Positions 5,276-14,848 of a stretch of DNA of 35,374 nt are shown here, piece by piece. The notes under the pieces were generated by a model. It was not told the DNA's origin. It saw nothing but the letters and a program-made list of their open reading frames with translations, and did not search any database. Source of the stretch: Verrucomicrobiia bacterium (GTDB lineage: Bacteria > Verrucomicrobiota > Verrucomicrobiia > Verrucomicrobiales > DEV007); assembly GCA_030432615.1 (NCBI GenBank), contig JAUIGT010000002.1, forward strand, positions 1-35,374, given 5' to 3'. The position numbers and the translations under genes were made by a program. Positions within the stretch are counted from its first letter, which is position 1. Each line of letters starts with the position of its first letter.

Positions 5276-5450
5276 CTTCGAGAAAGGCTTCTCGGAAACG
5301 ACCTCAATCGAGGCATGGCGGTCGTCAATCGATGCGTAGAGGCGGGGAATTCGGATCTGATAGCCTCCTTGTAGTGAGGCAGGAACGTGGAAGGCCACGA
5401 ACGCCGAAAGGCGGCGGAGAGCGCAGGAAAAAACCAGGGCCCAGAGCATC

Positions 5451-6785
5451 ATGAATCGCGAAATCACCATCGACCGAGAGAACGAATCCCTGGCCCCCGA
5501 GCGCGTGCTTCTGGATGACGGGAACCGCGCCGCAGCCTCCGGTCCGGGTGCGGGAAATGACTCGCCTTTCCTTCTCGGAGATCAGCATCACACCGTCGTG
5601 GGTTATGACGGCCTCAAGCGGCTGGCCCTCATGGTCACGCCGACCTGTGGCGGGGAATTTCGCGACCAGGTTTGGGAGACGGTTTCCCTGATTCGCACCA
5701 TACTCCGGCAACAGGGCGAGCCGATGGTGCTGACGATGCAGACCGTCTTCGTGGCCGATGCCGCCGATGTGCCGGTGGCGCAGCAGGTGTTCGAGGCCTG
5801 CTTCGGGGAACGGATGCCGTTGACGCTGTTCGTGGTTCAGCCGCCCTGCGGCGGTGTCGGCCTGGCGGTGGAGGCCTGGGCCATCAGCACGAACACGGTT
5901 TCCGTCGAGTATCTCGGTCCTCACCTGGTCACCGTCGAGCACGATGGCCTCCGCTGGATTCACGCGTCGGCCGGGGCCATTCACCTGGCGGGGCGCTCCG
6001 CCTACGAGCAATCGAGCGAGGCTTTCCGGGCCTTGGAAAAACGCCTGCGGGCGGTGGGCGTGCCCTTTCGGGACGTGGTTCGTCTCTGGCTCTACCAAGG
6101 GGGAATCACCGAGGACGAGGACGGGACGGAACGGTATCGGGAACTGAATCGCGGGCGAACGGATTTCTTCGACGGGATCGACTTTTCGTCGAACCCGCTC
6201 ATGACACCGACGGAGGGCCGCGATATCTACCCGGCCAGCACCGGCATCGGGACCGCGGAACACGGACTGGTGATCACCTCGCTGGCGGTGCAGACGGAGC
6301 GGGATGATGTGAGGGTTCTCTCGCTGGAGAATCCTCGCCAGATCTCGGCCTTCGATTACCCGAAGGAATACTCCGTCAAGAGCCCGAAGTTCTCGCGGGC
6401 GATGGCGATTCGGATCGGGAATCACCTGACGACCTGGGTCTCGGGAACCGCGAGCATCGTGAATTCGGAAACGGCGTTTGTCGGCGATGTCGTTCGGCAG
6501 ACCGAGCAGACCCTCGACAACATCGAGATGCTGATCGGGGCGGAAAACTTCGCCCGTCTCGGCTGGCCGGACGCCGGCGCCCGGCTCGAGGACCTGGCCA
6601 AGATTAGGGTCTATGTGAAGCATCCCGAGGATTTCGAGAAATGCCGGGAAGTCTGCGAGCGTCGCCTCGGCAAGGTGCCGTCGATCTACGCCCACGCCGA
6701 GGTTTGCCGACCCGACCTGCTGGTGGAAATCGAGGGCGTCGCCTTTTCACCCCTGGGACGGGACGAAGGAGGGGAGAAATCATGA
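5451..6785 (+). CDS. Chorismatase-like (FkbO/Hyg5/XanB2-related) protein with RidA-like N-terminal region
   Basis: RYRELNRGR..., YPASTGIG, ENPRQISAFDYPKEYSVKSPKFSRA, GDVVRQTEQTLDNIEMLIGAENF, KIRVYVKHPEDFEKCREVCERRLG, DLLVEIEG: the motif order of the chorismatase family; additional N-terminal MQTVFVADAADVPVAQQVFEACFG...PPCGGVGLAVEAWAI resembles RidA. Confidence 0.75.
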   Translation: MNREITIDRENESLAPERVLLDDGNRAAASGPGAGNDSPFLLGDQHHTVVGYDGLKRLALMVTPTCGGEFRDQVWETVSLIRTILRQQGEPMVLTMQTVFVADAADVPVAQQVFEACFGERMPLTLFVVQPPCGGVGLAVEAWAISTNTVSVEYLGPHLVTVEHDGLRWIHASAGAIHLAGRSAYEQSSEAFRALEKRLRAVGVPFRDVVRLWLYQGGITEDEDGTERYRELNRGRTDFFDGIDFSSNPLMTPTEGRDIYPASTGIGTAEHGLVITSLAVQTERDDVRVLSLENPRQISAFDYPKEYSVKSPKFSRAMAIRIGNHLTTWVSGTASIVNSETAFVGDVVRQTEQTLDNIEMLIGAENFARLGWPDAGARLEDLAKIRVYVKHPEDFEKCREVCERRLGKVPSIYAHAEVCRPDLLVEIEGVAFSPLGRDEGGEKS

Positions 6786-8374
6786 AGCGGCTCGCCTTTC
6801 TCACGGTCCTGGCCCTGGCGGGAACCTCCGCGGGACTCCGCGCGCAGCACCCGGTTTTCGAAGCCGGGCCGATGCAGGTCCCGTTGACCGAGGACGCCGA
6901 TTCCAGTGACCGGATCGACCAGTTGGTCCTGGAGCAATTGCGGGAACTCCAACTGGAACCTGCCCGCCTCTGCTCGGACGCCGTCTTTCTCCGGCGCGCT
7001 TACCTGGCCACCATCGGTACCCTGCCGACGGAGGAGGAGGCCCGCGATTTTCTCGCCAGCGAGGACGGGACGAAGCGGGCGGTGGTGATCGAGCGACTGC
7101 TGGAGCGGCCCGAGTTCGCCGATTACTGGGCGATGAAGTGGGGCGATCTCCTGCGGGTGAAGGCCGAGTTTCCCATCAAGCTGTGGCCCAACGCGGTGCA
7201 GGCCTATCATCACTGGATCCGGTCCGGCATCGAGCAGAACAAGCCGTTTCACCAGTTCGCGCAGGAACTGCTGGTGGGCAGCGGCAGCAACTTCCGGGAA
7301 GGCCAGGTGAACTTCTATCGCGCCATGCAGGATCGCTCGCCGCGCGGGATCGCCTCGACCGTGGCGCTCACCTTCATGGGCGAGCGGACCGAGCACTGGC
7401 CGGAAAGAAAGCTCGATGCGATGGCCGGATTCTTCGCCAACGTGGCCTACAAATCGACGGCCGAGTGGAAGGAGGAAATCGTCTACTTCGATCCCACCGC
7501 CGACGTGGAAGGCCTCACGGTGGGCGCGATCTTTCCCGACGGCACTCCGGCGACGGTCGATCCGGCGAAGGGCGATCCCCGGGCTCTCTTCGCCACCTGG
7601 CTGTTGCGTCCCGACAATCCCGCCTTCACCGGCAACATCACCAACCGGGTGTGGGCCTGGCTGATGGGGCGGGGCATCGTGCACGAGCCCGACGATTTCC
7701 GCCCGGACAATCCGCCGTCGAACCCCCGGCTCCTCGAATTCCTGCAGCAGGAGTTCATCGAGTCCCGATGCGACATGAAGCACCTCTACCGCATCATCCT
7801 GAATTCCCGGACCTTCCAGTTGTCGTCCATCCCGGTCCAGGACACACCCCTCGCGGCGGCGAACTTTGCCCATTATCCGCTGCGGCGCCTGGAGGCTGAG
7901 GTGCTCATCGACGCCATCAACCAGATCACCGGGACCCGGGAGGAATACAGCAGTCCCATCCCGGAACCGTTCACCTTCGTCCCCGACGACGTGCGTGGCA
8001 TCGCGCTCTCGGATGGCAGCATCACCAGCTCGTTTCTCGAACTGTTCGGCCGCCCGCCGCGCGACACCGGGCGCGAGGCGGAGCGTAGCCGGAACACCAC
8101 GCCCGCCCAGCGATTGCACCTGCTCAACTCGAGTCACATCCAGAAGAAGATCGAGGTCTGCCCTCTGGTCGCGGGTGCCGACGAATTGTCCCCGCAGGAG
8201 CGGGCCGATCTCGCCGAGCGAGCTTACCTGACCCTGCTATCCCGCTATCCGACCGGAGAAGAACTCGCCGCCATCGAGGCTCATGCGGAGGAGACCGGCA
8301 CCTTCGGACGGACCCTGGCCACCGATCTCGTCTGGGCGCTGCTCAATCAGCCGGAATTCTACTTCAATCACTGA
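6782..8374 (+). CDS. DUF1549/DUF1553 domain-containing exported protein
   Basis: Signal peptide; FLRRAYLATIGTLPTEEEARDFL (DUF1549); NRVWAWLMGRGIVHEPDDFRPDNPPSNPRLLEFLQQEF...KHLYRIILNSRTFQLSS (DUF1553). ATGA overlap with the previous gene (6782..6785). Confidence 0.92.
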   Translation: MKRLAFLTVLALAGTSAGLRAQHPVFEAGPMQVPLTEDADSSDRIDQLVLEQLRELQLEPARLCSDAVFLRRAYLATIGTLPTEEEARDFLASEDGTKRAVVIERLLERPEFADYWAMKWGDLLRVKAEFPIKLWPNAVQAYHHWIRSGIEQNKPFHQFAQELLVGSGSNFREGQVNFYRAMQDRSPRGIASTVALTFMGERTEHWPERKLDAMAGFFANVAYKSTAEWKEEIVYFDPTADVEGLTVGAIFPDGTPATVDPAKGDPRALFATWLLRPDNPAFTGNITNRVWAWLMGRGIVHEPDDFRPDNPPSNPRLLEFLQQEFIESRCDMKHLYRIILNSRTFQLSSIPVQDTPLAAANFAHYPLRRLEAEVLIDAINQITGTREEYSSPIPEPFTFVPDDVRGIALSDGSITSSFLELFGRPPRDTGREAERSRNTTPAQRLHLLNSSHIQKKIEVCPLVAGADELSPQERADLAERAYLTLLSRYPTGEELAAIEAHAEETGTFGRTLATDLVWALLNQPEFYFNH

Positions 8375-8393
8375 ATCCGTACCCGCCCTCGTC

Positions 8394-9770
8394 ATGAAAC
8401 GTTCGCTCGATCACCTTTTCGCCTCCCCGGGGAGTGTCCCCATGTCGCGCCGCGAGGCTCTTCGGCGCTCGGTCTACGGTTCCGCCGGGCTCCTGCTGAT
8501 GGAACCCTTCCGGGTGCTGGGCGCTCGCGATTCTTCCGTCTCCGAAGCGCCGAAAGTCGTCGAGGGCCGGGCCAAGTCCGTCATCCAGATCTGGCTCTGG
8601 GGTGGTCCCTGTCACATCGACACCTTCGATCCGAAGCCGGACGCTGGACGCGCCTTCACCGGGGCGCTCGACCAGGCGATCGAGACCAACGTGTCCGGGA
8701 TTCGCGTGGGCCAGCTCCTGCCCAAGTTGGCGGAGATGGCCGACAGGTATGCGCTGGTGCGGGGAATGACCCACGGCAACAACGGGCACGAGACCGCCGC
8801 CTACCTCGTGCAGACGGGCCGCGCCTCCGAGCGCGACGTCTTTCCCGGATCCGGGGCGGTCGTTTCCTATTTCAAAGGGTATGACGCCGGTTACAGCGGA
8901 CTCATTCCGCCCTACATCGTGCTCACGGAACCGCAGGGCCGATTCTCCGAGGCCGGATTCCTGGGGCCGCGCTACAAGCCTTTCGCCACCGGGGGCGACC
9001 CCAATGCCGGAGTCTTCGCCGTCGAGGGGGTGGTCACGCCCGGCATTTCCGAGGCCCGGCAAAAGAATCGCCGTTCCCTCCTGGGCAGCCTCAACACCCT
9101 GGGCGGCGCCCTGCCCGGCAACGCCGCCATCCGGACGGTGGTGGATTCCGAGGAGCAGGCCTACGAACTGATCCTCGGCGATGCCGGCAAGCTCTTCGAT
9201 CTCGGACAGGAAAAGGACGAGGTCCGCGATCAGTACGGCCGCACGACTTTCGGACAATCGTGCCTCATGGCGCGCCGGCTTGTGGAGAAAGGGGTGCCCT
9301 ACATCACCATCAACTACAAGGGGTGGGACACCCACAAGCAGCATTTCCAGATCATGAACCGGAAGCTGCCGGAACTGGACCAGGGACTCGCCGCGCTGCT
9401 CGAGGATCTCGATGGCAAGGGACTGCTCGACTCCACCATCGTCTGGTGCACGGGCGAGTTCGGGCGCACCCCCAAGGTCGCGACCGAGTCTCCTTGGAAC
9501 GGCGGACGGCATCATTTCGGCAACGCCTTTTCCTGCCTGCTGGCAGGCGGTGGCTTCCAGGGAGGGCAGGTTCTGGGAGCCACCAATGCCACCGGCGAGG
9601 AGGTGGTCGAAAGGCCCGCCTATCCGGCGGACGTCATCGGCAGCATCTATCGCCAGATGGGCATTCCCGCCGACGCCCCACTCCCGCATCCGCAGGGAGT
9701 ACCGACGAAAGTCGTGCCCGACGAGAACGAGGACGTACCCATGGCGGGGCTGCTCGATGAATTGATCTGA
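8394..9770 (+). CDS. DUF1501 domain-containing protein
   Basis: SRREALRRSVYGSAGLLL Tat-like leader; IQIWLWGGPCHIDTFDPKP; NNGHETAAYLVQTGR; WDTHKQHFQIMNRKLPELDQGLAALLEDLDGKGLLDSTIVWCTGEFGRTPKV...GRHHF. Start moved to ATG 8394. Confidence 0.95.
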   Translation: MKRSLDHLFASPGSVPMSRREALRRSVYGSAGLLLMEPFRVLGARDSSVSEAPKVVEGRAKSVIQIWLWGGPCHIDTFDPKPDAGRAFTGALDQAIETNVSGIRVGQLLPKLAEMADRYALVRGMTHGNNGHETAAYLVQTGRASERDVFPGSGAVVSYFKGYDAGYSGLIPPYIVLTEPQGRFSEAGFLGPRYKPFATGGDPNAGVFAVEGVVTPGISEARQKNRRSLLGSLNTLGGALPGNAAIRTVVDSEEQAYELILGDAGKLFDLGQEKDEVRDQYGRTTFGQSCLMARRLVEKGVPYITINYKGWDTHKQHFQIMNRKLPELDQGLAALLEDLDGKGLLDSTIVWCTGEFGRTPKVATESPWNGGRHHFGNAFSCLLAGGGFQGGQVLGATNATGEEVVERPAYPADVIGSIYRQMGIPADAPLPHPQGVPTKVVPDENEDVPMAGLLDELI

Positions 9771-9776
9771 ACCGAA

Positions 9777-11774
9777 ATGTCAGCAATGAAGGTAGGAAAA
9801 TGCTCGTGGTCGGGGTTGTTGGTCTGCCTGGGATTTTGGCTGGGGTGTGCGGGAATGGCGACCGCGGCCCCGCCCAAGGTCGGTTACGTCTATCCCGCTG
9901 GTGGACAGATGGGCGATTCGTTTGAGGCGGAATTCGGGGGGCAATACCTCGGCGACCCCGTTGCGGTGATCGTCTCCGGGAAAGGCGTCGATGCCGCGAT
10001 TCTCGAACACGACAAGGTGCCCTCGGCGCAGGTGATCAGCGACTACCGCGACAAGTTGAAAACGATTCGGCCGGCACTGAACCGGTTCCACGGAGGCGGC
10101 GATGTACCGGCGGCGGAAGTCATGCCGCGCCTTCTCGAACTGTTGGAAAAGGCCGAGCTGACGGAGAAGAACGTCCGCCACATCGACCAGTACACCCGCC
10201 AGCGGAACGATCCCAAGCGCCAGCTGAATTCCCAGATCGGCGAGACCGTGCGGGTGCGATTCACCGTCGCCGCCGATGCCGAGCCCGGCGTCCGATTCTG
10301 TCGCCTGCTGACCGAGTCGGGTCTCAGCAATCCGCTGCGCTTCGTGGTCGGGCGATTGCCCGAATACCGGGAGCCGGAGGCGTGGCGTTTTTTCCTTCCC
10401 GAATACCTGGGCGTGAAGACCGAGCCGCCCGAGGAGCAGGGAACGCGTGGGCCGGTGACCTTGCCGGCGGTACTCAACGGCCGCATTCTCCCCGGCGAGG
10501 TCGATGAATTCATGATCGAGGCGGCCGAGGGCAACCAGGTGGTGGTCGCGGTGGAGGCGCGCAGCCTGATTCCCTACCTCGCCGACGCAGTCCCGGGCTG
10601 GTTCCAGGCAGTCGTCTCTCTCGAGGACACGCGGGGGAACGAACTCGCCTTCGCCGACGACTACCGGTTCAATCCAGACCCGGTGCTGTTCTTCAAGATC
10701 CCGCGCGACGGCGAGTATCGGATCCGGATTCACGATTCGATCTTCCGCGGACGCGAGGATTTCGTCTACCGGGTCACGGTCGGCGAACTGCCGTTTCTCA
10801 CCGGCATCTCGCCGCTGGGCGGGCAGGCCGGGGCGGAGGTCGATCTCGTTTTCCAGGGCGGCAATCTCGCCGAACGGGAGCGGACGCGATTTCCGCTTCC
10901 CGAGGAACCCGGCATGCTGTTGCTCCGGGCGCGAGGGGAAACCGGGATGTCGAACGCGATCCCGTTTCACGTCGAGAACCTGCCGGAGGACGGCGAACGC
11001 GAGGGCAATGATCGGATCGGCGCCGCCAACGAGATGGACATGCCCGGGATCGTCAACGGCGCCATCGGTTGGCCCGGCGACCAGGATTTCTTCCGGGTCA
11101 AAGGCAAGGGCAACCAGCCGATGACCTTCGAGATCTTCGCCCGCCGGCTCGGTTCCCCGCTCGATGCCAACCTGGGGATTTACGACGATGACGGGAAACA
11201 GATCGCGTGGAACGACGACTTCGAGAATCCCTCGGCCGGACTGACCACCCATCATGCCGACGCCCGTGTCACCGTGACGCTGCCCGCCGACGGCCAGTGT
11301 TTCGTGCGCGTGGCCGACACCCAGAATCGAGGGAGCTACGCCCACGCCTATCGGTTGAAAGTGAGCCAGGGACCGCCGGAGGTGTTCCTGCGGGCGACGC
11401 CGTCGTCACTGAACGCCCGTCCCGGGGCCGCCGCCCAGTTCACGGTGCACGCCGTTCGCCTCGACGGCTACGATGGGCCGATCGAGGTGCGACTGAAGGA
11501 CGCCCCCGCCGGGTTTGCGCTGAGGAATTCCACCATTCCCGCGGGAGAGGATCAGGCTACGTTCTCGATCGCCGTGCCGCCGGGAGCCACCGAGGCGCCC
11601 ATGCCCCTCGCGCTGGAAGGAAGTGCGAAGCGGGATGGAGAGGATCCCGTGACGATCGAGGTCGTGCCCGCCGAGGACATGACGCAGGCCTTCATCCGCC
11701 ACCATTTCGTGCCGGTGGACACGCTCCTGATCGACGTTCGCGAACCTCCCGAGCCGGCGCCGTCCCGGGAGTGA
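9777..11774 (+). CDS. Exported pre-peptidase C-terminal (PPC)-like domain protein
   Basis: Signal sequence then PPKVGYVYPAGGQMGDSFEAEFGGQYL; PPC-like segment GDQDFFRVKGKGNQPMTFEIFARRLGSPLDANLGIYDDDGKQIAWNDDF. Typical partner of DUF1501 in PVC genomes. Confidence 0.85.
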   Translation: MSAMKVGKCSWSGLLVCLGFWLGCAGMATAAPPKVGYVYPAGGQMGDSFEAEFGGQYLGDPVAVIVSGKGVDAAILEHDKVPSAQVISDYRDKLKTIRPALNRFHGGGDVPAAEVMPRLLELLEKAELTEKNVRHIDQYTRQRNDPKRQLNSQIGETVRVRFTVAADAEPGVRFCRLLTESGLSNPLRFVVGRLPEYREPEAWRFFLPEYLGVKTEPPEEQGTRGPVTLPAVLNGRILPGEVDEFMIEAAEGNQVVVAVEARSLIPYLADAVPGWFQAVVSLEDTRGNELAFADDYRFNPDPVLFFKIPRDGEYRIRIHDSIFRGREDFVYRVTVGELPFLTGISPLGGQAGAEVDLVFQGGNLAERERTRFPLPEEPGMLLLRARGETGMSNAIPFHVENLPEDGEREGNDRIGAANEMDMPGIVNGAIGWPGDQDFFRVKGKGNQPMTFEIFARRLGSPLDANLGIYDDDGKQIAWNDDFENPSAGLTTHHADARVTVTLPADGQCFVRVADTQNRGSYAHAYRLKVSQGPPEVFLRATPSSLNARPGAAAQFTVHAVRLDGYDGPIEVRLKDAPAGFALRNSTIPAGEDQATFSIAVPPGATEAPMPLALEGSAKRDGEDPVTIEVVPAEDMTQAFIRHHFVPVDTLLIDVREPPEPAPSRE

Positions 11775-11992: not shown

Positions 11993-14686
11993 CTACTCGA
12001 TCTTCAACAGCTCCTCCGGGGTGAACGGCGCTCGGGCGCCCTGCCCCTCGCGCCATTCCTTCACCATCTTCGGGGTGATCGGGCTGGCGGCGTTGCCCCA
12101 CTCGTTGCGCACGTAGGTGAGCATGGCGGCGAGCTCCTCGTCGTCCACCTCGGGATTGGCGCGCATGCCGGGCATGAGCGGTTGGATGTCGGGCATCTTG
12201 TAGAGTTTGCCATCGACCTCGATCGGTCCCATGACACCCTCCATCACCAGGGCGATGAGCCGGGTGGGGGAACCGGTGACCCATTCGGAATCGACCAGCG
12301 GCGGGGCGAGGGCCTGCAATCCCTTGCCGTGCGGCTGGTGGCAGGCGGCGCAGACCACGGCGTAGTGTTGCTTGCCCAGGGCGAACTGGGCCTTGTCCGC
12401 TTCGGTCTTGAGAAAGGTCTCCTCGGCCTTGCCGGAGAAATCGAAGACCGCCGCCAGTTCCAGGCGCTTCTTGGCGTCTTCGTATCCGCCTTCGTCGGCC
12501 AGCAGGGCGGGCGTGGTCTTCAGGGCGATCGGCTTGAACTTCTTGCCCACCGCTTTCCGACCCGCGAGGAGTCCGTCCACGACCGGTTTCTGGAGCGCCT
12601 TTTCCGAGGCGGCCGCCACAAGCAATTGCTCGGCGAGGGGCGCCCGGCGCTGCTTGGCGGCGGTGACGGCCAGTTCGCGTATCAGTCGGCCGCGGTAAGG
12701 TTCGTCGAGCGCGAGCACCTGCTCCCTCGCCGCGGCCAGCGCCTCAACGTCGTTGGCCTTGACCACGGCGGCGAGCAGCGGCGCGGCCACGTCCAATTCC
12801 GGTTGGTGTCGCAGCACTTCCGCGAGGAAGGCGCCTTCCTGGCCGGCGAGACCGCTGAGGGCGAGGTCTTCGCCGAGTTTCTTCTCATCGCCCTCGGCCG
12901 GCGTTGCCAGCGTCTCCCGCAGGAGATCCAGGGCGGCATCGCGGATGCTTGCGGTTTCCGCGGCGGCGGCGAACACGCCGAGACTGGCCAGCAACTGGCG
13001 TCGCAGGACCGGGGCGGGATCACCTTTGCCCAGGGCGCCCCGGCAGGCACTGACGACGGCGCCGGCCTGGGTGGAATTGGCGAGACTCTCGGCGGCGCGC
13101 AGGGCCTGGGCGGCGACTTCCGGAGGCGCCGAGAAGGCCGCGGCCACGTCTTCGGCGGCGAGGGAGCCCAGTCCCTCCAGTGTCCAGACCGCATGGATAC
13201 GGGCCCGGGGATCGGCGTCCTCGTCGCCGGCGAGCCCGCGCAGGGCGGGGATCACGCTTTCGTCGCCGCGTTCGATGATCAGTCGCTGGGCGGTCTCCCG
13301 CCACCAGCCGTTCGGGTGGGCGAGGTGGGCGACGAGTTCCGCGCTGCTATCCTCGTGCATGCGGGGCGCCTTGCCGCGCGGGTTGCCCTCGTGCACGACC
13401 CGCCAGATGCGTCCGAGACCGACGGGCTTGTCGAGCCCGCGCTCCTCGACCTGTTTGCGGAGGAAGGTGGTCATGTAGGCGGCGTGCTGGAGGATGCCGC
13501 GATAGAAATCGACCAGGTAGAGGGTGCCGTCGGGGGCGGTGTAGCTGTTGACGATGCGGGAGCGCTCGTCGGTGGAGGTGAAGAATTCGCGCCCCTCGTA
13601 CGCCTGGGTGATCTCGAACCGTCCATCCACTTCGGAAACCACGGCCCGTTTCACCAGGTTGCCGCCGGGTTCGTTGATGAAGAGGTTTCCGTAGAATTCC
13701 TCGGGGAACTGGTCGCCCCGGTAGACGGCGAGACCGGACACGGCGGTGGGGCCCTTGAGCCAGCCTTTCTCGTCCAGCATGCTGTCCATGTAACCGCGGT
13801 TGATGCCTGGCGACATGCGCGAGGCCCACATGCGCTGGTCGGTGAGCCGGGTGGAAACCCGGGCGCGAAACTCGTGATTCGGATTGCGTTCCGTCAGGCC
13901 GGGAGCGATTTCCTCGGCGGTGACGCAGTTGGAATTGGTGTTGGTGTAGAGGCGCCCGAAGTCGTCCTGGTCGATACCCCACTGGCCGCGAAACTCCGTC
14001 TTTTCCTCCACCCATTTTCCGTCGATTCGGCGGTAGCGCGTGTCGCACTTGGAGCTGTAGATCCAGTTGTCGAGCGCCATGCGGAGTCCGTTGGGTTTGT
14101 GTTCCGGGTTGCCGCCCTCGGCGTAGTTGTCATCGACGATCACCTGCTGGCCCGCCTTGGGACCGCCGTCCCCGGTTTCGATGATGGCCACTTCGTAGAG
14201 CTTGTCGTTGTCCGCGTAGAGCAGGGCGGTATCGGCCGCGGTCAGGGCGACGGCGCGAGGCAGGACGATGCCGTCGAGAAAAACGGTGTGACGATCGGCT
14301 TTCCCGTCGTCGTCGGTGTCCTCGATAACCGAGATGCGTCCCACGGGTTCGTCCTCGCCCTTGCCATCGGGATTCGGCATGTAGCCGCGCATTTCCGCGA
14401 CCCAGATGCGGCCGTTGCCGTCGAAGGCGAGAGCGACGGGATCGTGGAGCATCGGTTCCGCCGCCACCAACTCGATGGAAAAACCCTCAGGCACGGCGAA
14501 GGTCGCCCGGGCCTTTTCGGAGGTCAGCGTCGGCGCCGCGGGGATCTTCCATTCCGCTGGCGGTGGATCCATGACGTGGCCATCGCGGTCGCCGCGCTGG
14601 GCCAACAGGGTCGAGTCGCCGACCCAACAGGGTAGAATGGCGGCGACGGCGAAAAACAGGGAACGGGAGCGGGAGGGAACTCGCAT
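11993..14686 (-). CDS. PVC-type membrane-bound dehydrogenase with HEAT-like middle and C-terminal c-type cytochrome
   Basis: FAVPEGFSIELVAAEPMLHDPVALAFDGNGRIWVAEMRGYMPN...; C-terminal VVCAACHQPHGKG (CxxCH) and YKMPDIQPLMPGM. Start placed at 14686 (MRVPSRSRSLFFAVAAILP signal peptide). Confidence 0.92.
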   Translation of the reverse strand: MRVPSRSRSLFFAVAAILPCWVGDSTLLAQRGDRDGHVMDPPPAEWKIPAAPTLTSEKARATFAVPEGFSIELVAAEPMLHDPVALAFDGNGRIWVAEMRGYMPNPDGKGEDEPVGRISVIEDTDDDGKADRHTVFLDGIVLPRAVALTAADTALLYADNDKLYEVAIIETGDGGPKAGQQVIVDDNYAEGGNPEHKPNGLRMALDNWIYSSKCDTRYRRIDGKWVEEKTEFRGQWGIDQDDFGRLYTNTNSNCVTAEEIAPGLTERNPNHEFRARVSTRLTDQRMWASRMSPGINRGYMDSMLDEKGWLKGPTAVSGLAVYRGDQFPEEFYGNLFINEPGGNLVKRAVVSEVDGRFEITQAYEGREFFTSTDERSRIVNSYTAPDGTLYLVDFYRGILQHAAYMTTFLRKQVEERGLDKPVGLGRIWRVVHEGNPRGKAPRMHEDSSAELVAHLAHPNGWWRETAQRLIIERGDESVIPALRGLAGDEDADPRARIHAVWTLEGLGSLAAEDVAAAFSAPPEVAAQALRAAESLANSTQAGAVVSACRGALGKGDPAPVLRRQLLASLGVFAAAAETASIRDAALDLLRETLATPAEGDEKKLGEDLALSGLAGQEGAFLAEVLRHQPELDVAAPLLAAVVKANDVEALAAAREQVLALDEPYRGRLIRELAVTAAKQRRAPLAEQLLVAAASEKALQKPVVDGLLAGRKAVGKKFKPIALKTTPALLADEGGYEDAKKRLELAAVFDFSGKAEETFLKTEADKAQFALGKQHYAVVCAACHQPHGKGLQALAPPLVDSEWVTGSPTRLIALVMEGVMGPIEVDGKLYKMPDIQPLMPGMRANPEVDDEELAAMLTYVRNEWGNAASPITPKMVKEWREGQGARAPFTPEELLKIE

Positions 14687-14848
14687 GGGATTGGAGGAAA
14701 GGGATGATGGGAGAATCCCGAAGTGATGGGAATTCGGATTCGTGGAGGATGGGAATTCTAGCACAAGACGCCCGGGCCGCTTGCGGCTTGTTCGCGGAAG
14801 GATGCCTTCGTCCTTGCGGGATTACGCGGGATCCGGGAGAAAGGAAAC

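Follow-up and report, generated by a model that had tools for sequence, protein, structure and literature searches.

The four-gene unit and its products

The window, by which we mean the whole stretch of 35,374 nucleotides that was analysed, carries on its forward strand four closely packed genes, preceded by a short conserved element:

5325..5340, + strand: candidate promoter or operator TCAATCGATGCGTAGA, 126 nt upstream of CHOR, recognised by conservation
5451..6785, + strand: CHOR, cytoplasmic chorismatase-like protein, 444 aa (Pfam, fold model)
6782..8374, + strand: haem-less DUF1549 (PSCyt2)/DUF1553 (PSD1) protein, 530 aa, Sec-type N-terminus (Pfam, model)
8394..9770, + strand: DUF1501 protein, 458 aa, twin-arginine (RR) N-terminus (Pfam, motifs)
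9777..11774, + strand: PPC-like protein, 665 aa, Sec-type signal (motifs; PPC domain below the Pfam cut-off)

The stop codon of CHOR and the start codon of the DUF1549 gene share 4 nt (ATGA at 6782-6785), and the following intergenic gaps are 19 nt (DUF1549 to DUF1501) and 6 nt (DUF1501 to the PPC-like gene); the coordinates, overlap and gaps given in an earlier note on this DNA thus match the open reading frames in the window. The same 4-nt overlap is present in several close relatives (L072, L077, L079, L095). Over 37 modules from both phyla that carry the unit, Verrucomicrobiota and Planctomycetota, the DUF1549 start can be drawn from -31 to +74 nt relative to the CHOR stop if the earliest in-frame start is allowed, a choice that favours small gaps, so that some modules may in fact have larger gaps.

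The upstream element retains 13 to 15 of its 16 positions in 7 close relatives, where it lies at -48 to -123. Elsewhere in the window's genome we observed a single site with one mismatch, and we rejected a regulon for this 16-mer because this genome has essentially no other such site. An Rfam scan of the window returned no known RNA element, a search for sigma-70 promoters was likewise empty, and terminators were as numerous as expected by chance. Outside the four genes there is no conserved neighbourhood except in close relatives, a comparison limited by shadow ORFs in GC-rich DNA, and the conserved neighbours of the unit include no aromatic-acid transporter and no additional biosynthetic gene. 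Convergent with the unit on the minus strand (11993-14764) lies a gene for a PVC-type haem-binding CxxCH protein (DUF7133 plus cytochrome c), whose position is kept only in the nearest relative (L071). A reading of the unit as an anti-phage defence system was rejected, the four proteins giving zero matches to the PADLOC models at E 0.01.

The second gene product matches PF07583 (112 bits) and PF07587 (146 bits) and the third PF07394 (308 bits), while PF04151 (PPC) reaches only 17.9 bits on the fourth against a gathering cut-off of 25.9, so that 'PPC-like' is a weak name, kept for convenience. Of the gene names proposed in the earlier note, the first three are therefore upheld by Pfam and the last is not. 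By inspection, the N-termini of the DUF1549 and PPC-like proteins are Sec-type and that of the DUF1501 protein is twin-arginine, while CHOR has no signal peptide, in agreement with the previous proposal of a soluble enzyme accompanying three products with predicted export signals. Planctomycete DUF1549 proteins of the unit, also by inspection, begin with a basic cytoplasmic tail followed by a membrane anchor.

None of the 37 module DUF1549 proteins contains a CxxCH haem motif, which makes 'cytochrome' a misnomer for this subtype, and a Pfam search of the unit gave no match to the PSCyt1 domain. The DUF1549 model is all-helical; it matches no solved structure with an E-value below 0.8, and a sequence-profile search with this protein found nothing. 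For DUF1501, the sole sequence-profile match is a weak one to a sulfatase (E 0.016), and its conserved motifs are GWDTH and a GGRHHFG-type motif (Asp/His). The module DUF1501 looks like a relative of alkaline phosphatases and sulfatases with a putative metal site, with which both the sulfatase match and the Asp/His motifs are in keeping. The PPC-like protein has two invariant motifs, DAVPGWFQ and THHAD.

CHOR, a distant relative of the chorismatases

CHOR exceeds the Pfam cut-offs for both PF21168 (FkbO/Hyg5-like N-terminal domain; 44.3 bits, cut-off 27) and PF01042 (54.8 bits, cut-off 27.3), and phmmer relates it to Hyg5 with an E-value of 1e-35 and to FkbO with 2e-29. Against the NCBIfam model TIGR04444 (FkbO/Hyg5) it scores 179.5 bits, which is under the curated cut-off of 325; the best E-value for this model among 64 CHOR members is 1.5e-53. 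An AlphaFold2 model computed from 64 aligned sequences (pLDDT 87) contains three RidA-like structural units, at about residues 45-146, 159-282 and 317-434, and its top Foldseek matches are solved chorismatases, with Hyg5 (5a3k) at an E-value of 7e-28 and a TM-score of 0.82 by target. From these observations, CHOR is clearly a distant chorismatase relative. Because the TIGR04444 cut-off is not reached, we file it as a relative with the chorismatase fold and not as a member of the FkbO/Hyg5 subfamily, and its substrate is a matter of inference.

Counting by hand on the phmmer-search alignment, we observed that Glu334, Cys327, Gly240 and Gly173 of Hyg5 correspond to E426, C419, G332 and G265 of CHOR, all four of which are invariant in the 64 members. 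In Hyg5, E334 is the catalytic glutamate, and the Gly/Gly/Cys combination is the CH-II signature that marks the 3-hydroxybenzoate-forming class of chorismatases (PMC7170507). Some positions otherwise conserved in Hyg5 and FkbO are changed in CHOR, for example YGPR to YSVK, and the substrate may therefore differ. The chorismate-like substrate suggested in the earlier note thus agrees with the fold and the catalytic residues, but it has to be set against the missed NCBIfam cut-off and the finding that the reaction of a chorismatase is not predictable from sequence alone (PMC3949708).

Along most of its length CHOR has the fold of the chorismatases FkbO, Hyg5 and XanB2 (5a3k, 5ag3, 4bps), and it shares their catalytic glutamate and CH-II signature residues. 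It exceeds them by about 100 residues, has a complete RidA-like unit at its N-terminus and lies in an operon with exported proteins instead of a polyketide or pigment cluster. We rejected the idea that the N-terminal unit is absent from Hyg5, as the Foldseek alignment covers most of the chain; Hyg5 probably has a shortened version of it.

At E 1e-10, the CHOR of the window finds matches in 141 of 390 sampled Verrucomicrobiota genomes, mostly of the ordinary chorismatase-like kind. Besides CHOR, one such ordinary gene is present in the genome of the window itself (G000:C35:3292-3951; L002, L070), so that a supply of hydroxybenzoate alone would not require CHOR.

Conservation of the unit in Verrucomicrobiota and Planctomycetota

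Within a sample of 76 genomes from the window's bacterial family, close CHOR orthologues (about 58-82% identical) occur in 14 other genomes, and in all 14 CHOR is followed, on the same strand and in the same order, by the DUF1549/1553, DUF1501 and PPC-like genes. Scanning 85,462 named species genomes, we kept 80 CHOR loci, chosen on CHOR only and overlapping as a set with the 14 family orthologues. Directly downstream of CHOR, 42 of these 80 loci, from Verrucomicrobiota and Planctomycetota, have a DUF1549 gene, which is followed by DUF1501 and a PPC-like gene wherever the contig is long enough; two further loci (L092, L122) have the triad upstream of CHOR rather than downstream. The window's genome contains about 77 DUF1549 and about 97 DUF1501 matches, fragments included, from which, with a gene number estimated at about 5,200, same-strand adjacency is expected by chance at about 0.7% per locus. 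Against this expectation the adjacency in 14/14 and 42/80 loci makes the association of CHOR with DUF1549 more than chance, and the homologues are far from being almost never beside DUF1549/DUF1501 genes, the outcome that the earlier note had named as speaking against its proposal.

Visualizing the CHOR sequences as a tree, we observed that the unit is present in 23 of 23 members of a Verrucomicrobiota block, and that a mostly Planctomycetota block of 17 comprises 15 with the triad downstream, 1 with it upstream and 1 without. Almost all loci that lack a downstream DUF1549 gene belong to a sister clade, in which just 1 of 23 has a triad beside CHOR. The presence of the module changes 4 times on the tree, compared with 22.9 times when the labels are shuffled.

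Of the 76 family genomes, 16 have a module-type DUF1501, which is accompanied by CHOR in 15 and is without it in 1; none has CHOR only, and the other 60 lack both (Fisher p = 6e-15, without correction for kinship). In the sixteenth genome the contig begins inside DUF1549, so that CHOR would fall off the contig end. The window's module DUF1501 shares 54-57% identity with module members from planctomycetes but at most 42% with paralogues from its own genome. Between the four proteins, the distance matrices show correlations of 0.82-0.94, to which shared species history contributes. Duplicates of the whole unit occur on one contig (L080/L086) and as pairs from single assemblies (L083/L085, L121/L130). 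The unit of four genes is real, old and specific, if rare: it is an operon, with a single predicted transcript, that is inherited as a unit across Verrucomicrobiota and Planctomycetota, which bears out the linkage of the four genes first proposed from the window.

Several variations on this arrangement were observed. In two loci (L076 2776-7760, L078 3595-8619) the CHOR unit is immediately preceded, on its own strand, by a second DUF1549-DUF1501-PPC triad; this triad is without a CHOR of its own, with about 51-56% identity in DUF1549 and DUF1501 and about 40% in the PPC-like protein. One Verrucomicrobiota genome has a tandem pair of CHOR-like genes, 46% and 27% identical to that of the window (L115 9001-11987). 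A di-haem oxidoreductase (DHOR) gene lies directly upstream of a triad-less CHOR (L109 6725-8311), and in L130 (5627-5986) a GYD-domain gene comes after the PPC-like gene or overlaps its end, with similar genes in 6 loci.

Possible links between CHOR and the exported proteins

We hypothesize that CHOR is a cytoplasmic lyase that supplies or tunes a small aromatic acid for the exported DUF1549-DUF1501-PPC assembly, a reading to which we give a probability of about 0.4. The lyase, with its chorismatase fold, would most likely act on chorismate or a close analogue, yielding pyruvate and an acid of the hydroxybenzoate type, for which 3-hydroxybenzoate would be the best guess from the CH-II residues. 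The exported assembly would consist of the Sec-type DUF1549/DUF1553 protein (membrane-anchored in planctomycetes), the Tat-type DUF1501 protein and the large, secreted PPC-like protein, and may use, modify or attach outside the cytoplasm the aromatic acid made within it. Alternatively, CHOR may set the aromatic-acid supply; a lyase under the control of the assembly was also considered. The narrower proposal, that the chorismate-derived acid is a dedicated substrate, building block or cofactor of the exported machine, we put forward as tentative. The substrate, the product, the export and the direction of the link between CHOR and the assembly are what we infer, and we stress that gene proximity is no proof that CHOR and the exported proteins act on the same molecule.

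Three other explanations have to be weighed against a lyase that serves the assembly. CHOR might be a sensor or regulatory subunit with chorismate or a hydroxybenzoate as its ligand, controlling the assembly by way of, for example, protein contacts or Ser/Thr phosphorylation signalling. A hint of a Ser/Thr phosphorylation link comes from the sister clade, in which CHOR relatives from Kiritimatiellota and Lentisphaerota (L066, L067, L068, L069, L134, L135, L140, L141) carry an FHA-like N-terminus with an SRRHCE motif, recognised by this motif rather than by a profile match. In five planctomycete modules the gene immediately upstream encodes a PP2C phosphatase (assigned by Pfam in L103 and L108, by similarity to those in L106, L107 and L111), two modules have an Rrf2 regulator gene, and the basic cytoplasmic tail ahead of the membrane anchor in planctomycete DUF1549 would also suit signalling of this kind. 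The invariant catalytic residues, however, would be superfluous in a pure sensor, and FHA, PP2C and Rrf2 genes are absent from the unit in the window and its near relatives; we consider such a role rather unlikely. A further idea is that CHOR is not a chorismatase at all but a Rid enzyme that retains the fold and has a house-cleaning role, hydrolysing reactive imines or enamines, or some other small carbonyl compound, that arise near the exported assembly. The Rid model TIGR00004 matches all 64 CHOR members and RutC matches 60, R420 of CHOR adjoins the signature cysteine in the region of the carboxylate-binding arginine of RidA (whose Arg105 and Arg107 have been described; PMC4433059), and the TIGR04444 shortfall would fit as well. 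Over most of CHOR, though, the best structural matches are chorismatases, with E-values some 20 orders of magnitude below those of single RidA proteins, and the Glu, Cys and Gly residues of chorismatases do not vary, so that we judge this identity unlikely.

It is quite improbable, in our view, that the link is genetic only, with CHOR serving an unrelated metabolism and belonging to the operon either because it is regulated together with the other genes or because a mobile cassette was inherited. Such an origin would be in line with the patchy distribution of the unit (in one sample, module-type CHOR is found in 2 of 393 planctomycete genomes) and with the mostly triad-free sister clade; but the genes hold their order and strand from one phylum to the other at identities of about 50-57%, the unit is duplicated as a whole, and its members are present or absent together almost perfectly in the family, where a neutral linkage would decay.

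Few protein families are as strongly amplified in planctomycetes and verrucomicrobia as DUF1501, DUF1549 and DUF1553, which to our knowledge have no known function; of DUF1549 and DUF1501, PVC bacteria carry dozens of copies. Earlier work has nevertheless described a DUF1501 gene module for PVC bacteria (Kamneva et al. 2012, by way of PMC4452313), and the 'undescribed system' of the earlier note is for this reason too strong a term. With that module and with the planctomycete-specific cytochrome and PSD genes (PMC4452313, PMC5615132), the unit shares DUF1549/DUF1553 adjoining DUF1501 and export signals, and it differs in its haem-less DUF1549, a fixed PPC-like third partner and a chorismatase-like first gene. 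The DUF1800-DUF1501 operons, some of which lie next to chitin synthase genes in Proteobacteria (PMC5122149), similarly combine a Tat-type DUF1501 that has a fixed partner with a neighbouring biosynthetic enzyme, but the partner there is DUF1800 and the enzyme chitin synthase, whereas here they are DUF1549/1553 and a chorismatase-like protein. Our literature search found no paper naming DUF1501 together with DUF1549, and among the matches listed for chorismatase and the PVC phyla none names a chorismatase. The chorismatase-like fourth gene is unmentioned in the papers found, a set that does not extend to Kamneva et al. 2012, and as far as we have searched it is the new part of the DUF1501 module.

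The partnership with CHOR offers a chemical lead on the role of the abundant exported DUF1549/DUF1501 proteins, and a dedicated aromatic acid, if confirmed, would be the first known small-molecule chemistry for these families. With a fixed, assayable enzyme partner for one subtype, the question of their function becomes testable at the bench in named organisms, among which Rhodopirellula rubra, Stieleria sedimenti and Aporhodopirellula aestuarii carry the unit.
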